Source: Tenericutes bacterium HGW-Tenericutes-1 (GTDB lineage: Bacteria > Bacillota_I > Bacilli_A > Izemoplasmatales > Hujiaoplasmataceae). From it: a stretch of DNA of 64,000 nucleotides. Position numbers and translations under genes: made by a program. Of this stretch, positions 2,533 through 20,348 are shown piece after piece; the stretch's first letter is position 1; every line of letters begins with the position of its first letter. The DNA is taken from the NCBI GenBank assembly GCA_002839155.1, contig PGXM01000001.1, positions 186,001-250,000 of the forward strand. Reading direction: 5' to 3'. Below the pieces are notes generated by a model. It was not told the DNA's origin and did not search any database. It saw only the letters and a program-made list of their open reading frames with translations.

Positions 2533-3705
2533 CTATTTTTTAAACCGATCTCGAAGCCAAGATGGAATTGCGACATCTTCTGTCTCTTCCTCAACTTTTT
2601 TTGGCATTTTATCTTGTTCTTTTTTTAGTTTTTCTTCTTTTTTCAAATCTTTTTTGGACTTAGGTGAAGGCTTGGTTATCACTTCATCGACTTTCGGTTG
2701 AGAGTTTTGATTGTTCTCAGCACGTTGAATCGTTGTTTCCTTGAAAAGTGGATCTTCTAGGTAACCCGTTGCAATAACGGTAACAATGATTTCATCATCT
2801 AAATCTGTATTGATGGCACTACCATAAATAACATTAATTTCCGTTGTCGAACTTTTGCGAATTTCTTCAATAATTTCATTGACTTCATATAATGATGCAT
2901 TAAAGCCAGACGTAATATTAACGATAGCATCCGTTGCGCCATTAATGGATGTTTCTAATAGCGGACTACGAATGGCTGCTCTTGCTGATTCAACAGCACG
3001 ATTTTCACCAGAAGCGATACCAATACCCATTAATGCGGTTCCTTTATCTTTCATAACGGTTTTAATATCGGCAAAGTCAACATTGACAACACCAGGAACA
3101 GCGATAATTTCCGTGATTCCTTGAACACCTTGACGTAAAATGTTATCCGCTTCACGGAAAGCATCTAAATAAGGTGTGTCTTTTTCAACAATATAAAGTA
3201 ACTTGTCATTTGGAATGACGATTAATGTATCGACGAAAGGTTTGAGTTCTTCAAGACCTTGCATTGCAACTGAGGCTCTTTTACGTCCTTCAAAACCAAA
3301 AGGTTTTGTCACAATACCAATGGTTAAACAACCCATTTCTCTAGCAATTCTAGCGATAACAGGGGCTGCGCCCGTACCGGTTCCACCACCCATACCTGCG
3401 GTGATGAAAACCATGTCAGTATCAGCTAAAATTTCACGAATTTCGTCTTCAGATTCTAAAGCAGCTTGACGTCCAACTTCAGGATTTGCACCAGCTCCAA
3501 GTCCTCTGGTTAACATTTTGCCGAGTTGTAAACGAACATCCGCTTTTGATAATCTTAAAACTTGAGCGTCAGTATTGACTGCGACAAATTCTACGCCTTG
3601 AACATCATTTTCGATCATGCGATTAATTGCAGATCCACCGCCGCCACCCACTCCGATGACTTTAATTACGGGTTTTTGATTAAATTTCTCGTTGATATCA
3701 AACAT
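2533..3705 (-). CDS. ftsZ: Cell division protein FtsZ
   Basis: FtsZ is a tubulin-like GTPase that polymerises into the division ring. The 390-aa protein has the nucleotide-binding start [17 protein letters not shown], the tubulin signature [10 protein letters not shown] (about 106-115) and the NTDAQVL segment. A charged Lys/Glu-rich linker (about 320-377) precedes a conserved C-terminal peptide, IPSWLRDRF, used by FtsA/SepF-type partners. No ftsA or other dcw gene is adjacent, so it stands outside a division cluster. The ATG at 3705 follows GGAGGT. It is monocistronic: its own promoters lie upstream and a terminator follows directly. Confidence 0.98.
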
Positions 3706-6527: not shown

Positions 6528-7559
6528 TCAAAATTTATGAATAAACATGGAATCTCCAAAGGAAAAGAAACGATATTTTTCTTCAACGGCTTTTTGATAT
6601 GCGTTTAAGATAATATCTTTAGAAGAAAATGCTGAAACTAGCATAATGAGCGTTGATTTTGGAAGATGAAAATTCGTAATTAAAGCATCAATAGCCTGAA
6701 ATTTAAAACCGGGATAAATAAAAATATCTGTCCATCCAGAATCTTTTATGAAATCACCATGTTTTTGATAAATTGATTCAAGAGTTCTAGTGGTTGTCGT
6801 ACCAACCGAAATGATTCTTCGGTTTTCCTTTTTCGCTAACTTTAAAATGTCAACTGTCTCTTGTTCTAACCGGTAAAATTCAGAATGCATTTTATGGTTT
6901 AAAACATCATCGACTGCGACAGGACGAAATGTTCCTAATCCAACATGGAGCGTTAGCGTACAAACGATAACCCCCATCTTTTTGATGGAATCTAGTAGTT
7001 CATTGGTAAAATGCAAACCAGCTGTCGGAGCTGCGGCACTACCAACTGCTTTAGAATATACCGTTTGATAGCGATCAGGGTCTTCTAGTCGTTCATGAAT
7101 ATAAGGGGGCAGTGGCATTTCTCCCAATTGATCCAAGATTTCTAAGAAAATACCTTTATAAATCATCTCAAAATGACGGATGCCCTCTTCGCCTTCTTTG
7201 ATACATTTCGCAGTAAGAAAACCATTCCCAAACTCAATTTCAGTGCCGACTTTCACTCTTTTTGCAGGCTTTGCCAATGTTTCCCATATGTTATTACCCA
7301 GTTCGGTTAATAATAAGACTTCGATGATTGCATTCGTTTCTTTTTTCACGCCTAATAGTCGAGCTGGAAGAACTTTGGTATCATTCAATACTAAAACATC
7401 ACCTGCATTTAAATAATGGGTGATATTTCTAAAAATATCATGTTTCAGATTAGTTGAAAAACGATCAACTAATAAAAGTTTGGAAGCACTTCGGTCTGAA
7501 AGCGGGGTTTGAGCAATTAATTCTTCGGGTAAGTAGTAATCAAAATCAGATGTTTTCAT
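6528..7559 (-). CDS. queA: S-adenosylmethionine:tRNA ribosyltransferase-isomerase QueA
   Basis: QueA transfers and isomerises the ribosyl group of SAM onto preQ1-tRNA to give epoxyqueuosine. The 343-aa protein has the family start ([20 protein letters not shown]), [12 protein letters not shown], and [10 protein letters not shown] followed by [10 protein letters not shown]. Its ATG overlaps the ruvB stop (ATGA), so the two are translationally coupled. With Tgt and YhhQ this completes a route from imported preQ1 to oQ-tRNA; the epoxide reductase (QueG/QueH) is not in the window. Confidence 0.97.
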
Positions 7560-8563
7560 TCAAATAACGTTCCTTGAAAAGATTTTTTGAGATGTTTATA
7601 AGCCTTTTCGGTGACGACACGTCCTCTTGGAGTTCGACTGATAAACCCTTTTTGAATCAAGAAAGGTTCATAGACATCTTCTAATGTTTGCGGATCTTCG
7701 CTGATGGAGGTGGCGATGGTTTCTAATCCAACGGGTCCTCCATGATATTTTTCTATGATTCCTAATAAATATTCACGATCTTTTCGATCAAGACCTGATT
7801 CATCAATTTTTAATTTCTCTAACGCAATTTTAGTGATATCTACAGTGATGACACCATCACTTAAGATATCAGCGTAATCTCTAACTCTTCTAAATAGTCG
7901 GTTAACAATACGTGGTGTTCCTCTACTTCGTTTTGCTAATTCTTGAATCGCGTATTCATGAATATCACAATTATAGATACTTGCGGTTCTTCTGCAAATA
8001 GTCTCTAAATCTTGATCATTATAAAATTCAAGTTTATGAACAATGCCAAAACGGTCTCGTAACGGACCCGTTAAGTCTCCAAAACGAGTTGTCGCCCCTA
8101 TGAGAGTAAAAGGAGGTAAGTCCACACGAATTGATTTAGCACCAGAATCTTTTCCGACAACGATATCGATGACAAAATCTTCCATCGATGAATATAAAAT
8201 TTCTTCAACGATTTTAGGTAACCGATGGATTTCATCAATAAATAAGACATCGCCCGGTTCAAGACTGGTCAGTATCGCTGCTAAATCTCCAGTTCTTTCG
8301 ATTGTGGGTCCACTGACTACCTTCATTGAAACGCCAAGTTCATTAGCGATAACTTGTGCAAGGGTTGTTTTACCAAGCCCAGGAGGGCCATAAAGCAATA
8401 CGTGATCTAAAGACTCATTTCGCTTTCTAGCAGCCTCAACTGCAATCTGAATCATTTCTTTGACGCTTGTCTGACCAATATATTCATTAAAATGTTGCGG
8501 TCTTAATGTTGCTTCAACTTCATCGTCCATTAATAAGTGATTCGTTAAAATGCGTTTGTCCAT
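7556..8563 (-). CDS. ruvB: Holliday junction DNA helicase RuvB
   Basis: RuvB is the AAA+ motor that drives branch migration with RuvA. It shows Walker A (GPPGLGKTT), Walker B (LFIDEIHRL), sensor [17 protein letters not shown] and a C-terminal winged helix ([20 protein letters not shown]). A GTG at 8572 is in frame, but the SD GAGGTG overlaps it and is well spaced from the ATG at 8563, so 335 aa is preferred. The stop is TGA. ruvA, usually directly upstream, is absent; the region upstream is divergent. Confidence 0.97.
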
Positions 8564-8581
8564 AGATAGCACCTCAATAAC

Positions 8582-8631: not shown

Positions 8632-8660
8632 TTGTATTTAAACAAGACATAATATATAAT
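8632..8660 (+). promoter_or_regulatory. Promoter of the giant coiled-coil operon
   Basis: TTGTAT (8632-8637) and a perfect TATAAT (8655-8660) are 17 bp apart, about 30 bp upstream of the start codon. Confidence 0.7.
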
Positions 8661-8689
8661 AAAGTCAAAAGGTTCGAAGAGGTGAGGAA

Positions 8690-11600
8690 ATGCCAAGAAA
8701 ACGCGCTAATAACATTATTCCGCCGCAAGCATTCTCTCCTGAGATTTTAAAGCACGAACAAATTCAAAATGAGATACAAGAATCTATCCTCAAAATTGAA
8801 GAGAAATATCGTGTGGAAATCGCTAAAATTGAATCTAATTTCGCAGTCTTTGATGAAGAGTATTTTAGGACTTTTCAACAATATGAAACCGATTTTTCAG
8901 CTGCAATCGCCTATGTTGAGGATGAATATAGGCTTCTTTTTGATGCTTTATTGAACGATTTAGAAGATAATTCCAAAAAACAATCTTATATGATTGCTAA
9001 AGAGCAAAACGAATATGATACGATACTCGGTAAATTCGAATCACTTCAAAAACAAGCTCATGAAAAGTATATCGAACTATGTAAAGTATCTGAAGCTTAT
9101 ATCGACCGCGAGGCACTTATTCATACGAACTTTGTGAATGATGAAGATGCAAGATTTGATGCCATGAGGAAAAATTATTCCAGCATCAATAACAAACAAT
9201 ACGATACGCTCCTTTGGTCAATGGAAAAATCAAAGAATTCATTAGGTGATTTATCGAAGAAATTAAATGATCAAGGATTTAATGACGCAAAATTCTTGAC
9301 CACTTCTGTCATAAAAACAATAGAGGATTTAAGAGAAGCGAAAAACAATATTACAGTTTTGTTTAAAACAACGACGCAAGTATTTTCTCAAAAAAAGAAA
9401 GTTATTGATGATTTATCATTAGTAAGACAAAAACCTCATTCTGTATTAAATCAGAAATTAATCAACCAATTCGTTGAACAAATTCATAATGTCAATGATC
9501 AACGTCAATCATTTGAAACTTTAGTTAAAAATGATTTAAAAAAATCAGTAACCACCATCAGTGAAAAACTCATTCAAGCAGATCACGACAACGATGATAA
9601 ATTAATCAAAAAATATATCATGCAGTACAAAATTATCAATGCAAAAGCGGAGTTTCTTCTAAAAAGAAATCGTGAAATGTCTGACTTGCTCATCCAAAAA
9701 TATCAAAATGAAATTAAAAAAATTAAGATTGACTCATTCAGACGGGTTGAAGAGATAAAATTAGCTTATTATATGCCAAGTGAATTTTTTCAAAACAGTA
9801 TCAACCTGTATTCGAATTTTGCCTTTTATATCAATGAGTCAATGGATGAAATCGACAATATGTTGTCTGACTTTATTCGTTTTAATCAAAATATTGCTCA
9901 AACCGCAACGGATTATGTTTACACTTCTTCTAAGATATTTGAAGACTATAAAATTAATCTTTTAGTGACGGTGAATGATGCAACCAATCGATTAACTGAA
10001 CTGATTACGAATGTTGATCGAATCAGCAAAGAAATCATCGAATTGGAATCTAAAAACCGCTTGGAAATTGCACAAATTAGAAAAGACATGGAAAATCTCG
10101 ACATTACTGGAGACTACCAAAAATATGTCAAATCACTCGAATTTGATCGTTTTTTTGCTGATTATCAACATAAAATCAATACCCGAAAATTGTCGATCGA
10201 ATATGATAAAACCGAAAAATTATTATCGATTCAAAAACAATTGACTGATTCAAATCTCAAAAGAGAAAAAGCTAAGATTGACACAAAACATGTAAAATTA
10301 TTGAACGATTTAGAACGTAAGATTCATGAATCTGCTCTCGACAAGCAATTCATGATTGCGGAAACAATGCATAGAAAAACCTTAGAATTAATAGAGTCAA
10401 CGGGACAGTTAGCTTACTCAGATGAAGAATTGATTAAAATGAGAAAAGCATTTGTTATTGGAAAAGCAATTGAAAATCAAGAGAATGAATATATTAAAAC
10501 GGAAAAGAACGGAAATGCTTATGTAGTAGACTTTGTTCATGAAACACAAAAGTTGATCGACCTTCATAAAATACAAACCGCTAATGAAAAAGACTATATT
10601 TCAAATGATACACATCAATTACGTTATGCAAGAGTTATCGAAAATGAACGCAATAAAACAATAAAAGTTCATTCTGCAAAATATAACGATATGACACTTC
10701 AAAACCGTCAAGCAGTCACATACTTAAGCCAATATTTGTTCAAAACCCACACCCATTTAAGATATCGAATCGATAAAACTTCGAATCAAATTAAGAATAT
10801 GCTTGTAAATTTAAATGAAGAAACACTTTCACTACAACTAAAAGTTCTCGAAGCTGAAAACATGTTTAAATACAATGTATTTTATACATTTGATAGTGCA
10901 GTTGATACCCTTAAATCAGTGAATGATTCATGTCATTTATCAAAATTATCAGATCAAATATCTACACCGGTCGAACATTTTATCTATCGCTATAATTGTC
11001 TTTGTGATGAAATATTCCCTCATCTTTTCAAAAAAATGAAATCGAAGAATAAAATCAACCTAGTTGAGAAATTTTATATCGAAACTCTTCTTCTTATCAA
11101 AGACTATCATACATTCTTAGTTCTATTCTTTGATTACGCGTTAGAAGAAAGTATTCAAAATGACGTCTTAACGATTCGTTCAAAACGTGAAAAACAGTTT
11201 GAAGAGCAAAAAATTATCGATGATCATTACGATCAAAGAATATTTGAAGCAGCAACTAAAAAATCGAAGACGGCATCAATTCTATCCCATTTAGATTTAG
11301 AATATGCCAACTTTGAATTACTCATGAAAGAACGCGTTTTTCAATTGAATCAAACTTTTTTAACTGTCCTTAAGAAAGAAAAAGAAAAACTTAAATTTGT
11401 TAAGACTGAATTACTCAAATCAATTGATGATATCGACCAAGACAATCAAAAAACTAAATCTAAAATTGCAAAGTCAATTGCGTGTAAAATCGCTGTAGCT
11501 CAATTAAATTTCTATTATATTGAAAACGATTATAAAGCAAAGAAAATTATATTATTCGATGAGGCTCAGGCTCAAGCATTAGCAAAAGATAATGAGTTGG

Positions 11601-12148
11601 AACAAACCGAGAAAGAACAATCTACCTATCTTGAAACACTTAATCAATCCATTGCAACACTTCCTGAAGTTCAAAATCGTGAGATTGAACAAATGGAATC
11701 TGCTAAATTAGCGTTAATGAACGAGAAACGCGCAATCTTAAATCGTGAATTGACAGAGATTGAAGAAAAGAAATTATTAGCGACTCCAATTTATCTTGAT
11801 CAAATTGAAGCTGTTAAATCAAGATTGCCAAATGATTACATGGTTTTATATAAAGAAATTGCATTAGCTGAAGAGCAATTAATCAATGAACATCGAAATA
11901 TCGAAACAATTTATCAGCAAAATTTTGGTAGATTTATCGGTAATCAAATGGAATATAACAGTATTCTTTTCAATGATTCCGTTATTTTACATCCATTCGA
12001 CAAGCAAATGGATTCAACGAAGAAAATTATTAAAAAGTCGAACGAATTATTCAAAGATACGCTCGATAAATCATCCATGGCACAAGATAAAATTAATAAA
12101 AAAACCGTTGAATCCAATGAAAAACAAAAACGGGTATTAAACGTATAG
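8690..12148 (+). CDS. Giant cytosolic coiled-coil protein (1152 aa)
   Basis: Function is not recognised. The protein is almost wholly charged helix: heptad-like runs rich in Glu, Lys, Ile, Leu, Gln and Asn, about 1% Gly and one Trp. There is no signal peptide, no membrane segment, and no Walker A or P-loop, so it is not an SMC or Rad50 ATPase. Less charged, Tyr/Phe-rich stretches interrupt the coil near residues 365-410 and 740-830, suggesting globular knobs or hinges. The SD GAGGTGAGG precedes the ATG. It is followed 13 bp later by a second protein of the same type. A cytoskeletal or scaffold role is a guess. Confidence 0.85.
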   Translation: MPRKRANNIIPPQAFSPEILKHEQIQNEIQESILKIEEKYRVEIAKIESNFAVFDEEYFRTFQQYETDFSAAIAYVEDEYRLLFDALLNDLEDNSKKQSYMIAKEQNEYDTILGKFESLQKQAHEKYIELCKVSEAYIDREALIHTNFVNDEDARFDAMRKNYSSINNKQYDTLLWSMEKSKNSLGDLSKKLNDQGFNDAKFLTTSVIKTIEDLREAKNNITVLFKTTTQVFSQKKKVIDDLSLVRQKPHSVLNQKLINQFVEQIHNVNDQRQSFETLVKNDLKKSVTTISEKLIQADHDNDDKLIKKYIMQYKIINAKAEFLLKRNREMSDLLIQKYQNEIKKIKIDSFRRVEEIKLAYYMPSEFFQNSINLYSNFAFYINESMDEIDNMLSDFIRFNQNIAQTATDYVYTSSKIFEDYKINLLVTVNDATNRLTELITNVDRISKEIIELESKNRLEIAQIRKDMENLDITGDYQKYVKSLEFDRFFADYQHKINTRKLSIEYDKTEKLLSIQKQLTDSNLKREKAKIDTKHVKLLNDLERKIHESALDKQFMIAETMHRKTLELIESTGQLAYSDEELIKMRKAFVIGKAIENQENEYIKTEKNGNAYVVDFVHETQKLIDLHKIQTANEKDYISNDTHQLRYARVIENERNKTIKVHSAKYNDMTLQNRQAVTYLSQYLFKTHTHLRYRIDKTSNQIKNMLVNLNEETLSLQLKVLEAENMFKYNVFYTFDSAVDTLKSVNDSCHLSKLSDQISTPVEHFIYRYNCLCDEIFPHLFKKMKSKNKINLVEKFYIETLLLIKDYHTFLVLFFDYALEESIQNDVLTIRSKREKQFEEQKIIDDHYDQRIFEAATKKSKTASILSHLDLEYANFELLMKERVFQLNQTFLTVLKKEKEKLKFVKTELLKSIDDIDQDNQKTKSKIAKSIACKIAVAQLNFYYIENDYKAKKIILFDEAQAQALAKDNELEQTEKEQSTYLETLNQSIATLPEVQNREIEQMESAKLALMNEKRAILNRELTEIEEKKLLATPIYLDQIEAVKSRLPNDYMVLYKEIALAEEQLINEHRNIETIYQQNFGRFIGNQMEYNSILFNDSVILHPFDKQMDSTKKIIKKSNELFKDTLDKSSMAQDKINKKTVESNEKQKRVLNV

Positions 12149-12161
12149 AAAGGAGCAAATT

Positions 12162-15107
12162 ATGGCAAAAGATAATAAATTCATTGCTTCAGAAAATAAA
12201 ACTCGATATCGTTCACAAGTGAACGCTTCTTTTGCCAACGAAACAGCCCTCTATGAATCGTTTTTTCAAAAAATAACTGATTATGCAAAGACACATAAAC
12301 AAATAACCATTAACAATTTAAATCAAGTTGAAACAAGATTAAGACAGTTAAAAAAACAAGCTGCAGTACTTCAAGAATCAATTTTATTTCATGATGAAGA
12401 AGTGGTTGTGGAACGTTCAAAAATCATTCGAAATACTGAAAATTTAACTCATAATCAAAATGAAAATATTTTGCATTATGATCGAATGAATGCTGATGAA
12501 ATTATCAATGCTGTCGACTACCTTTCAAAGGCACTGCTTACGGTCAAAAAAGACTTCTTCGATTTTCACGAACATGCTTATCTCAATGAAATCATTGCTA
12601 ATGAATCATATTTCGAATTTTATACTCAAAAAAGCCAAAAAATTCAAGCAATTCTAGACAAGCATCAAGACAATATTTATCAAATGTTTACAGAACTTGA
12701 TGATGAAATCAAATTCATGGATGATAACATCTCAAGAATCTTAAGTGATAAAAACCATAAAATGCTTCAAATCAACGCATTTTATGAAAAAGAATTAAAG
12801 CATTATTCAGATAATCAATTAACCTATTCCGCCGAGTCTGATCCCACTTCTATTGAAGTTCAAGCTTTGACCAGCGACAAGATTAACCAATACAACACCT
12901 TTAAAGAACATCAAAGTTATCAAAATGCTCAAATTCGGCAACAATTACATGTTGAATACATGACGCTTTTTAATCATATTTTCGGACGTCTATTACGCAC
13001 TCAATCCTATGAATGGGTCAAAGCATATGATTTCTTCGATGCTCCCGAAGTCTATTTAAATGATTATAAATTAACAGCACTCGATTTAGAGAGAATCGAT
13101 AATAAAAAAGACCTCATTCCAATGCTTAAATTAATACAAAAACTTGAAAAGTGGCCATTGGTAAAACAGCATTTAGAGAAAAAAGCACATCATTTACTTC
13201 GTCAACAAATGCACGATAAAGTTCGAATGATCGTTTATAATGAAAAACATAGTGCGAAACAATTATCCAAAATGGAACTTGCTTTGGATCAATACCTTAA
13301 AGTGATGAAAATTGATCCCTTCTTAGCACAATCTTTAGGGGATCAAAGTTCAACGTTAATTAAAGATGAAAGAATGTATCTTTCAGTCCTTAAAGTCAAT
13401 AAGGAATTAAAAGCAAATATCAATTACGATATTCAAACGGCGAAAATAAAAAGCGATATTAACTCCATTGAAACAAATCTTAGATACAGCGTTAAGAAGA
13501 CGATGTATAAACAAGAAATTGAAATTCTCGATGAAATCCTTGATATTAATCTATTTGTTTTGTCTGGAAGTTTAAATCGCGCTTTAGCAAAACAATCAAT
13601 TCTAAAAGAGCGTGCCCTTATTGAACGCCTTGATAAGGCTGCAAATGAACATCTTGCGTATCTTATTGAGTCATTTAACACGAATCGTATGTGGTTATCG
13701 CTTGTAAGTCAAGCATTAATCGACGCGACAAGGGCGAAAGAAACGCATAATATCTATGTTGCGGAAGCAAAATCAAAAATCGAGTATATTTTAAAACAAT
13801 ATGAGATGAGAGCTTTATTCTTTAAAGCAATGTATGAAAATGAATTAAATTATTTAGTGGGGCAACAATCTCGCGTTGATAATGAATCAAAAATTCATAA
13901 CGAGTTTGTTCTCAATACGTATTTAAATCAAATGCGTTTCGCTGAAGAACAAGTTAAGTTTGCTGAATACGAATACCGACTTCGACTTGAAGCTATAACT
14001 GATACTATAGACGGTGAAAGAGCTTATCATCATGAAATGATCAATACGACTAAACATCGTTATAGTGAGCAAATCAAAGTTATCAAGAACGAATATGAAG
14101 CCTATTATTACCAAGACTCTAGACAACTTGAATTTGCGAAAGATGATAAAATCAAAAAAAGTATTATTCAAAAGATAGAAAAAGCAACGAAGAGTCGTGA
14201 TCAAAAAATAAATACCTTAATTCAAGATATGTCTGATAATCAAGTCATTCATAAAGCAGAGTCTGAATTGGCCCAGTTAGATGAATACCTTCAAGATGCA
14301 ATCAATGACGCTACAGAATTACGTGACACCACCATTAGCGAATTCTCTGAATTATATCGTTTTTCGAAAGAACGTTATGATGTCTTGAAACCTTACTTAG
14401 AAAGTTCGGTCAATATTTTAGATCCAACTTTCTATGACATGCTTGAAAGAATCAATAATCGCATGCAATTTCAAATGAAAAAAGCTGAAATCGAACTCGA
14501 TGACAATACTAAAGATTTAATGAAAAATTACCTTGAAATATATTTCCAGAAAACGGAAGACATTAATCAAAAAGATTACAGTGAATTAATGGATGACATT
14601 TATAATTCTCGAGAACAAATAAAAACCCGCTATGCAGCAAGACTTCAAGCCGTTGAATCTGCTTTCGTCAATAAGATTTCTGAATTCTCACGAATTGATG
14701 AAAGTATGAAAAAAGAAGTCGAATCTTTAAAATTCAATTGGAAGACGCGTCACGATACGACCGTAGCTCAATTGAAGCAACAATTGCAAAATGTTGAGAA
14801 TGAATATATTGCTCAAGTCAAAATTGATCAAGCAAAAACTGAAAAAACGGTTGCTAGACTATCTAGCGAATATCGACTAGCAATAAAAACAAATCGTCAA
14901 TTTACCGACGGAGTCGCTGAAGATTTCGACAAATTAATTAAATCTTATCGACCCTATATGAAAATTGCGAAAAAAGACATCGAATTCAATAAAATCGTTA
15001 AGCCGTTAATTAAAAAGAATCGAATCAAATTAAAACGAAATCTCCGAGATATTGAATTACGCTACCATCGATATCAAATTCGTTCCTTAGTTGAAAACTC
15101 AAATTAA
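12162..15107 (+). CDS. Giant cytosolic coiled-coil protein (981 aa)
   Basis: This is the second gene of the coiled-coil operon, with SD AAAGGAG. The protein is again nearly all predicted helix, Gly-poor, with no signal peptide, membrane segment or nucleotide-binding motif. A more globular part (about 225-340, containing FNHIFGRLLRTQSYEWVKAY) separates an N-terminal coil from a long central and C-terminal coil. The last about 30 residues are strongly basic (KKNRIKLKRNLRDIELRYH), which could bind membrane, nucleic acid or a partner. No clear alignment with the upstream protein is visible by eye, but composition and build match. Function unknown. Confidence 0.85.
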   Translation: MAKDNKFIASENKTRYRSQVNASFANETALYESFFQKITDYAKTHKQITINNLNQVETRLRQLKKQAAVLQESILFHDEEVVVERSKIIRNTENLTHNQNENILHYDRMNADEIINAVDYLSKALLTVKKDFFDFHEHAYLNEIIANESYFEFYTQKSQKIQAILDKHQDNIYQMFTELDDEIKFMDDNISRILSDKNHKMLQINAFYEKELKHYSDNQLTYSAESDPTSIEVQALTSDKINQYNTFKEHQSYQNAQIRQQLHVEYMTLFNHIFGRLLRTQSYEWVKAYDFFDAPEVYLNDYKLTALDLERIDNKKDLIPMLKLIQKLEKWPLVKQHLEKKAHHLLRQQMHDKVRMIVYNEKHSAKQLSKMELALDQYLKVMKIDPFLAQSLGDQSSTLIKDERMYLSVLKVNKELKANINYDIQTAKIKSDINSIETNLRYSVKKTMYKQEIEILDEILDINLFVLSGSLNRALAKQSILKERALIERLDKAANEHLAYLIESFNTNRMWLSLVSQALIDATRAKETHNIYVAEAKSKIEYILKQYEMRALFFKAMYENELNYLVGQQSRVDNESKIHNEFVLNTYLNQMRFAEEQVKFAEYEYRLRLEAITDTIDGERAYHHEMINTTKHRYSEQIKVIKNEYEAYYYQDSRQLEFAKDDKIKKSIIQKIEKATKSRDQKINTLIQDMSDNQVIHKAESELAQLDEYLQDAINDATELRDTTISEFSELYRFSKERYDVLKPYLESSVNILDPTFYDMLERINNRMQFQMKKAEIELDDNTKDLMKNYLEIYFQKTEDINQKDYSELMDDIYNSREQIKTRYAARLQAVESAFVNKISEFSRIDESMKKEVESLKFNWKTRHDTTVAQLKQQLQNVENEYIAQVKIDQAKTEKTVARLSSEYRLAIKTNRQFTDGVAEDFDKLIKSYRPYMKIAKKDIEFNKIVKPLIKKNRIKLKRNLRDIELRYHRYQIRSLVENSN

Positions 15108-15150
15108 AAAAAACCTAGCAAAAGGGTTGTGCCTTATGCTAGGTTTTTAT
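15103..15150. terminator. Bidirectional terminator between the coiled-coil operon and nhaC
   Basis: AAAACCTAGCA (15110-15120) and TGCTAGGTTTT (15137-15147) form an 11-bp stem, with A residues before it and T residues after it. It can end transcription from both sides. Confidence 0.9.
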
Positions 15151-19169: not shown

Positions 19170-20348
19170 TTATAATAGTTTCTTCAATAAGCTCTTGCCA
19201 TAGGCTGTTTGAGCAACATTGAAGTTGTCAGCAATCGTAGCTCCAAGATCCGCAAAAGTATCGCTATCAGGCAAAATACTGCCCTTAAAGTACCGGTTAT
19301 AAAAGAACATTGGAACATATTCTCTCGTATGGTCGGTTCCTGAATGTGTTGGGTCATTTCCATGATCAGCTGTAATAATTAACAAATCTTCTTCACCGAT
19401 TAATGGAAGTAAATTCCCTAGATCATGGTCAAATTCTTCTAAAGCATTTTTATATCCAATTGCATCACGACGGTGTCCGTATAATGCATCAAAATCAACG
19501 AGATTGACAAAACATAATCCCATGAAATCATCTTTTGCAATAGCCATCGTTTTTAACATTCCATCATGATTTGAGACAATTGAGTGATGCGCATTAATAC
19601 CAGACCCATTGAAGATATCACGAATTTTTCCCACTGAGATAACATCAAACCGAGACTCATCAAGGTAATTTAAAACCGTTTTTTCAGTTGGACTTAAAGC
19701 ATAATCATGACGGTTTGTCGTTCGTTTGAATCCATTGACTTCATCCCCTAAAAAAGGTCTAGCAATGATTCTTCCAACTTTCCACTCGTCTTTCATCATA
19801 ATCTCACGTGCTATGTGACAAATATGATAAAGTTCTTCAAGCGGTACTACTTGTTCGTGAGCAGCAATTTGTAAAACGGAGTCCGCACTGGTATAAACGA
19901 TTAACGCCCCTGTTTTCACATGCTCCGGCCCAAGTTCAACTAAGATTTCTGTTCCACTCGCTGCTTTATTTCCAATCACTTTTCTTCCGGTTTTTTTCTC
20001 CAATTCGTCAATCAATTCCTGAGGGAATCCCGTATCAGTAAATGTTTGGAATGGCGTTTCGGTTTTTATTCCGACAAATTCCCAGTGTCCCGTCATTGTG
20101 TCTTTACCATTGGATAGCTCTGCCATCTTTCCAACATTAGCTATTGGATTAACTACAGGCTTAACTCCTAATATTTCGGTTAAGTTCCCATAACCAAAAG
20201 ATTCTAATACTGGTAAAGATATTCCACCAGCGGCTCTTGATAAATTACCGATTGTGTTGCTACCGACGTCGCCAAATTTAATAGCATCAGGCATTGCCCC
20301 TACGCCAACAGAGTCCATGACGATTAAAAATATTCTTTTGTATTTCAT
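19170..20348 (-). CDS. deoB: Phosphopentomutase
   Basis: DeoB interconverts ribose-5-P and ribose-1-P (and the deoxy forms) in nucleoside salvage. The 392-aa protein of the alkaline-phosphatase superfamily has IVMDSVGVGAMPDA (metal Asp), KDTMTGHWEF (phosphorylated Thr), HEQVVP and the metal-binding ITADHGNDPTHSGTDHTREY. Its start overlaps the xerD stop by 4 bp (ATGA). The xerD-deoB order matches Bacillus. It is the last gene before a terminator. Confidence 0.97.
   Translation of the reverse strand: MKYKRIFLIVMDSVGVGAMPDAIKFGDVGSNTIGNLSRAAGGISLPVLESFGYGNLTEILGVKPVVNPIANVGKMAELSNGKDTMTGHWEFVGIKTETPFQTFTDTGFPQELIDELEKKTGRKVIGNKAASGTEILVELGPEHVKTGALIVYTSADSVLQIAAHEQVVPLEELYHICHIAREIMMKDEWKVGRIIARPFLGDEVNGFKRTTNRHDYALSPTEKTVLNYLDESRFDVISVGKIRDIFNGSGINAHHSIVSNHDGMLKTMAIAKDDFMGLCFVNLVDFDALYGHRRDAIGYKNALEEFDHDLGNLLPLIGEEDLLIITADHGNDPTHSGTDHTREYVPMFFYNRYFKGSILPDSDTFADLGATIADNFNVAQTAYGKSLLKKLL

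Follow-up and report, generated by a model that had tools for sequence, protein, structure and literature searches.

Crescentin, FilP, Scy and the Ccrp proteins are large, charged, almost entirely helical and non-enzymatic proteins of particular lineages; they have been proposed to act as scaffolds, and they rest on heptad coiled coils. Internal structural proteins are also found in wall-less bacteria, namely HMW1 and HMW2 of the Mycoplasma attachment organelle and the fibril protein of Spiroplasma, and long helices in proteins of similar length characterize the condensin ATPases SMC, MukB and JetC. The two giant proteins described here, A and B, and the single giants that occupy the same chromosomal slot in other families, share the general properties of the first group but differ from it in having a hydrophobic period of 3.62 residues in every lineage, and they show no sequence relation to any family of Pfam or the PDB. 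HMW1, HMW2 and fibril belong to other lineages, and searches of the Pfam and NCBIfam libraries gave no match for A or B. The condensins supply the top structural matches of the giants, which nonetheless have no ATPase heads, hinge or P-loop.

Two adjacent genes for giant helical proteins

The window (the whole stretch of DNA analysed, 64,000 nucleotides from Tenericutes bacterium HGW-Tenericutes-1) contains two consecutive plus-strand genes, A (8690-12148; 1152 aa) and B (12162-15107; 981 aa), both of which are intact and which, by their open reading frame coordinates, are separated by 13 bases; lengths and strand agree with the initial annotation. A putative operon promoter can be read from the sequence at 8632-8660 on the plus strand, with a -35 hexamer TTGTAT, a 17-base spacer and a -10 hexamer TATAAT (8655-8660). 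The latter is a perfect consensus, whereas the -35 matches at only three of six positions, so that the earlier description of a consensus promoter stands for the -10 element and is overstated for the -35; this is also why the promoter falls below the threshold of 9 of 12 matches in our promoter scan and is not listed there. Good Shine-Dalgarno sequences had been claimed for both genes, and are visible upstream of A (AGAGGTGAGG, 8678-8687) and of B (AAAGGAG, 12149-12155), again read from the sequence of the plus strand. The single rho-independent terminator of the pair, at approximately 15109-15148 on the plus strand, has a 12 bp outer stem followed by T's, with a folding energy of -21.8 kcal/mol (z = -5.45) that none of 200 shuffles equalled, and it may also serve the convergent gene.

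The compositions bear out the view that these are charged helical proteins with about 1% glycine. Glycine accounts for 0.8% of A and 0.6% of B, proline for 1.0% and 0.9%, and the four charged residues (K+R+D+E) for 31.1% and 30.9% respectively, and AlphaFold2 predicts helix contents of approximately 95% for A and 89% for B with mean pLDDT values of 79 and 80. The pTM values of just 0.33-0.37 indicate that the overall packing in these models is not trustworthy. Neither protein has a membrane segment (the highest 19-residue hydropathy means are 1.28 in A and 1.29 in B), a P-loop motif (GxxxxGK[S/T]), or a signal peptide or membrane anchor such as would mark an S-layer or secreted protein. The strongly basic tail noted for the second protein is also evident, the last 75 residues of B having a net charge of +11, and basic C-terminal tails are present in B of both the window's family, Hujiaoplasmataceae (f1), and Izemoplasmataceae (f3), as well as in the single giants. 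Sequence conservation is greatest at about residues 105-545 of A and 540-620 of B.

Conservation of the pair and its chromosomal slot

Gene A is divergent from ruvB (7556-8572, minus strand), which serves as the marker of a conserved slot and lies beside queA (6528-7559); on the other side of the pair, beyond four intervening genes in the window genome, is deoB (19170-20348, minus strand), followed by xerD, hemW, lepA and pnp. This place is fixed in Izemoplasmatales, with queA-ruvB on one flank and deoB-xerD-hemW-lepA on the other and with occasional insertions, and ftsZ lies in the same neighbourhood about 5 kb away (2533-3705 in the window). Within Hujiaoplasmataceae, B is present in 33 of the 34 genomes and A in 32, and the two are neighbours in every genome where one contig spans both. 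One of the gaps is a genome that lacks both genes and also the ruvB region, and the other is a contig end. The order ruvB, A, B, deoB is common to all three Izemoplasmatales families found, and a survey of the slot yielded about 25 Izemoplasmatales loci with a giant helical protein; relatives that bear names in the GTDB collection comprise Candidatus Izemoplasmatales, Izemoplasma/Izimaplasma and MAGs related to them. Among the carriers of the pair are two cultured organisms, Hujiaoplasma nucleasis zrk29 (G019), a published genome of the window's family (PMC10470597), and Xianfuyuplasma coldseepsis zrk13 (G041), a published Izemoplasmataceae genome (PMC8397711); both have been described as wall-less.

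In Izemoplasmataceae the arrangement is the same, with A' of about 1190 aa and B' of about 975 aa. Profile comparison relates B to B' with an E value of 6e-38 over 931 columns and A to A' with 1e-9, colinear over 1041 columns, although Blast gave no link between A and A'. The third family (f2) has a pair beside ruvB (L147, L148) that sequence search had overlooked; its B matches that of Hujiaoplasmataceae by profile (1e-11 over 858 columns), and its A was recognized from place and character alone. Cross-comparisons gave 0.014 for A with B, 0.07 for A with B' and 2e-4, over a short stretch, for B with A'; the first of these values lends no profile support to the idea that A and B are paralogues. 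In one member of Izemoplasmataceae (G055) a single 702-aa helical gene (L209:7680-9788) replaces the pair between ruvB and deoB, and in one MAG (G032:C56:26355-29145) many stop codons interrupt gene A while B is intact, reflecting frame decay or assembly error. As many of the genomes are MAGs, the breaks in a few copies (G032 and G013, for example) may be assembly errors.

The nearest relative is 78% identical to the window in A and 82% in B, with pN of 0.13 and 0.11 against a near-saturated pS of 0.73 and 0.77. The dN values of 0.145 for A and 0.123 for B lie between those of queA (0.088) and hemW (0.221). Both genes are under purifying selection; they are neither chance open reading frames, nor phage genes, nor decayed, and they are long-lived, vertically inherited and non-mobile. 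Co-conservation of the pair in three families of a wall-less order, one with kinship to Acholeplasma, sustains the proposal of a paired, lineage-specific system of giant helical proteins. Close relatives show no pattern of widespread loss accompanied by decaying frames; the sole Hujiaoplasmataceae genome without the pair is the one that also lacks the ruvB region.

The system is not limited to pairs, however, since a single giant of like character holds the ruvAB slot in all 12 Acholeplasmataceae loci and in two related families, f16 (four loci) and f22 (eight loci). Genes were assigned to the family if they lie beside ruvB, exceed 900 aa, contain less than about 2% each of glycine and proline and have a period of about 3.62, and the single giants have all of these properties; most are of 1126-1240 aa and divergent from ruvA, and one f22 copy ends at a contig end. 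On the opposite side, most loci of Acholeplasmataceae and f16 have obgE-rpmA-rplU, and in f22 ftsZ directly follows the giant at five of the eight loci and is one gene farther in a sixth. Several f22 loci (L162-L167) have small LysM-like and zinc-ribbon-like genes adjoining the giant that resemble genes beside ruvA in f5. Three of the genomes, G142, G213 and G201, we take to be A. laidlawii PG-8A, A. palmae J233 and A. brassicae O502. In G213 the single giant seems to be split into frames of 104 and 1002 aa (L138), by decay or sequencing error.

The single giants of f12, f16 and f22 are mutually homologous and colinear (profile E values of 2e-33, 6e-17 and 2e-13, with reversed controls at 1.6e-4 or worse), and their profile finds a giant in 48 of 88 Acholeplasmataceae genomes, which represent the majority of the free-living genera; in genus g136, whose 29 small genomes resemble phytoplasmas, it finds none. 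The Izemoplasmatales A profile matches the single giant at 5e-9, in register at the N-terminus, with a reversed control that is raised (8e-6) and block-shuffled controls at 1e-3 or worse; the C-terminal third of B matches nearly as well (1e-7). The common slot and orientation, similar length and weak in-register profile match make orthology between A and the single giant likely, though short of proof. By a RuvB tree the giant could have arisen once, through one change that is weakly supported (62/7), and the SMC-bearing lineages all fall to one side of a branch that is well supported (97/88). Absence in other orders was judged by the synteny of this one slot and by profiles that fail between families, such that carriers elsewhere could be missed. 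Shorter helical genes poor in glycine and proline also lie beside ruvA in f5 (588-613 aa; L132, L141) and in f18 (428-614 aa; L146, L176, L177), the latter with a hydrophobic period of about 3.64. Their membership of the same family has no profile support; they are possible precursors of the giant.

Straight helices and the search for known relatives

Hydrophobic residues recur with a peak at 3.62 residues in A, in B and in all single giants, as against 3.50 in the SMC arms used as a control and 3.36-3.56 in the arms of JetC, a second control. The peak holds at 3.61-3.63 for sequence windows of up to 300 residues, and autocorrelation peaks fall at 7, 11, 18, 22, 29 and 36 in the giants compared with 7, 14, 21, 28 and 35 in SMC. 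Because an alpha-helix free of supercoiling naturally turns with nearly this period, the hydrophobic stripe would run straight along the helix, and to judge from the sequences the helices are straight, and not heptad supercoils, in every lineage. The initial annotation had called these proteins coiled coils, a designation that does not survive in its heptad sense, and heptad arms of the SMC, crescentin or intermediate-filament type are not found in them.

Projection on a helical wheel gives a hydrophobic stripe and a polar face that bears charges of both signs, has no lysine rim and is hydrophobic at about 20% of its residues. This pattern favours helix-helix bundles over membrane helices in the style of apolipoproteins, whose expected lysine rim is missing. 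Weak profile matches in the PDB were obtained with TIP-99a from B and from the single giant (1e-5 and 6e-3), and with apolipophorin-III from A (0.0085). TIP-99a is a designed straight-helix bundle. Both TIP-99a and apolipophorin-III are small proteins, unlike the giants, and the weak likeness is one of pattern, that of a straight amphipathic helix period, with no evidence of descent. The remaining weak PDB matches of the single giant are to ordinary coiled coils and fall on its residues 730-960.

Searches of Pfam, NCBIfam, PHROGs, PADLOC and the PDB with single proteins and with profiles gave only marginal helical matches, and no family there covers the giants. Foldseek comparisons of the A and B models with the PDB, and of the B model with viral structures, returned long helices of the SMC, MukB and Rad50 type, the best with TM-scores of about 0.1 and rmsd values mostly above 50 Å, which indicates a generic long-helix similarity. 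An SMC, Rad50 or MukB ATPase head is also lacking, since A and B have no Walker A motif and no match to Pfam AAA or SMC families. The matches to SMC, a phage tape measure or an S-layer protein that might have overturned the initial annotation were sought and not found, and we found no description of the giant family in the literature. Extreme sequence drift at a place of fixed synteny would account for its escape from homology searches.

A candidate internal scaffold and competing roles

Carriers of the giants share a number of absences. ScpA is found in none of the 29 carrier genomes tested, and true SMC is likewise absent from all tested, while the Mycoplasma-type and walled lineages in the genome set mostly have both, and those SMC-bearing lineages whose ruvAB locus was opened have no giant there. 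SMC is also missing from f5, f7 and f18, although these have no giant of this size. Neither a transpeptidase nor a true MreB is encoded in the window genome, where the only MreB match lies in a 617-aa frame of DnaK size. MreB is missing from all carriers tested except Izemoplasmataceae, which have three copies; five of these genomes (G035, G037, G041, G045 and G050) have three MreB genes in a row and no transpeptidase. Transpeptidases are missing from the carriers tested save three f22 genomes, whose possession of a giant indicates that it is not strictly a wall substitute, and the phytoplasma-like genus of Acholeplasmataceae, which is also wall-less, has lost the giant, which is thus dispensable there. 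The link of the giant to the disappearance of SMC, MreB and wall genes holds between clades and does not represent many independent events. Chromosomal JetA-JetB-JetC operons of the MksBEF-like type are present in the window genome (L205:4806-10034, G000:C5) and in a second carrier (L207:808-6060, G142:C1), and no JetD nuclease gene adjoins the operon in these two genomes. JetABC is more likely than the giants to be the condensin of these two genomes; its presence without SMC-ScpA gives the appearance of a swap of the main condensin within the clade.

We give about an even chance to the interpretation that A and B together make up a structural, non-enzymatic system of internal rods or scaffold, with the basic tail of B as its anchor. 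In each giant, straight amphipathic alpha-helices would follow one another almost without a break over a very great length; they probably pack within and between A and B to form rigid, non-supercoiled rods or bundles, and these in turn could build an internal framework that is either cytosolic or beneath the membrane. The conserved tail of B may tether this framework to an acidic surface, for which the anionic lipid membrane is the likeliest candidate and DNA the other. Where cells have no peptidoglycan and in most cases no MreB, the framework might help to set size and shape and give mechanical support for division. The pair is co-conserved, and the remaining two families of the order have it in the same slot; the predicted helix content and 3.62 period extend to all giants, and the helical wheel fits helix-helix packing. 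The TIP-99a matches of B and of the single giant, and the wall-less context, are consistent with this arrangement. Against it are the untrustworthy packing of the AlphaFold models, the transpeptidase-bearing f22 carriers, retention of the pair by Izemoplasmataceae alongside three MreBs and the wall-less phytoplasma-like genus without a giant, and the basic tail suits DNA as well as it does a membrane. A broader version, which we regard as doubtful, is that the giants constitute a new class of skeleton made of untwisted rods, with a single origin in the common ancestor of Acholeplasmatales and Izemoplasmatales that predates full loss of the wall. This skeleton would have turned into a system of two proteins in Izemoplasmatales, and it would let free-living cells forgo peptidoglycan and, for the most part, MreB.

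The absence of SMC suggested a chromosomal role, in which A and B would bind DNA through the tail of B and organize the nucleoid in cells without SMC-ScpAB. This would accommodate the distribution of SMC and ScpA relative to the giants, the basic tails in B of two families and in single giants, and the neighbouring ruvAB, which is a DNA-repair operon. We nevertheless think it unlikely, as SMC loss extends beyond the giant to f5, f7 and f18, both traits may stem from one ancestor, neither protein has an ATPase, and the JetABC condensin of the window genome and of G142 can do this work; the same operons weaken the notion that the giants have replaced SMC. In another reading the amphipathic helices themselves might lie flat on the inner leaflet in the manner of apolipoproteins and stiffen or curve it directly. 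A straight stripe would suit a membrane-lying helix too, and A has its match to apolipophorin-III, but this lone match is marginal, and the mixed charges and hydrophobic residues of the polar face, with no lysine rim, leave such a coat quite improbable.

Proximity to ftsZ, which adjoins or nearly adjoins the giant in six f22 loci and is about 5 kb away in Izemoplasmatales, raises the prospect that the giants work with FtsZ to support the Z-ring in place of the wall machinery. We consider the prospect slim, given that the neighbour in Acholeplasmataceae and f16 is obgE-rpmA-rplU rather than ftsZ and that the phytoplasma-like genus divides without a giant. Long helical proteins with fast sequence change are also reminiscent of structural proteins of phages or mobile elements, such as tape measures, or of defence proteins. 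Phage records, IMG/VR, PHROGs and PADLOC yielded no match to A or B, and in one family after another the genes keep to one place among housekeeping genes. The likelihood of any such role is close to nil, and a phage origin is ruled out by the synteny and vertical inheritance of the genes, barring a prophage homologue.

The internal scaffold stands as our preferred interpretation, and the giants provide a concrete and unannotated candidate, of more than 1000 residues, for a determinant of shape, size or division in wall-less bacteria beyond Mycoplasma and Spiroplasma. Some carriers are culturable, H. nucleasis zrk29 and X. coldseepsis zrk13 among them and presumably A. laidlawii PG-8A. The giants have kept their one chromosomal place through the whole history of two orders, and their straight-helix period would be an unusual way in nature of building a structural protein of this size in bacteria.
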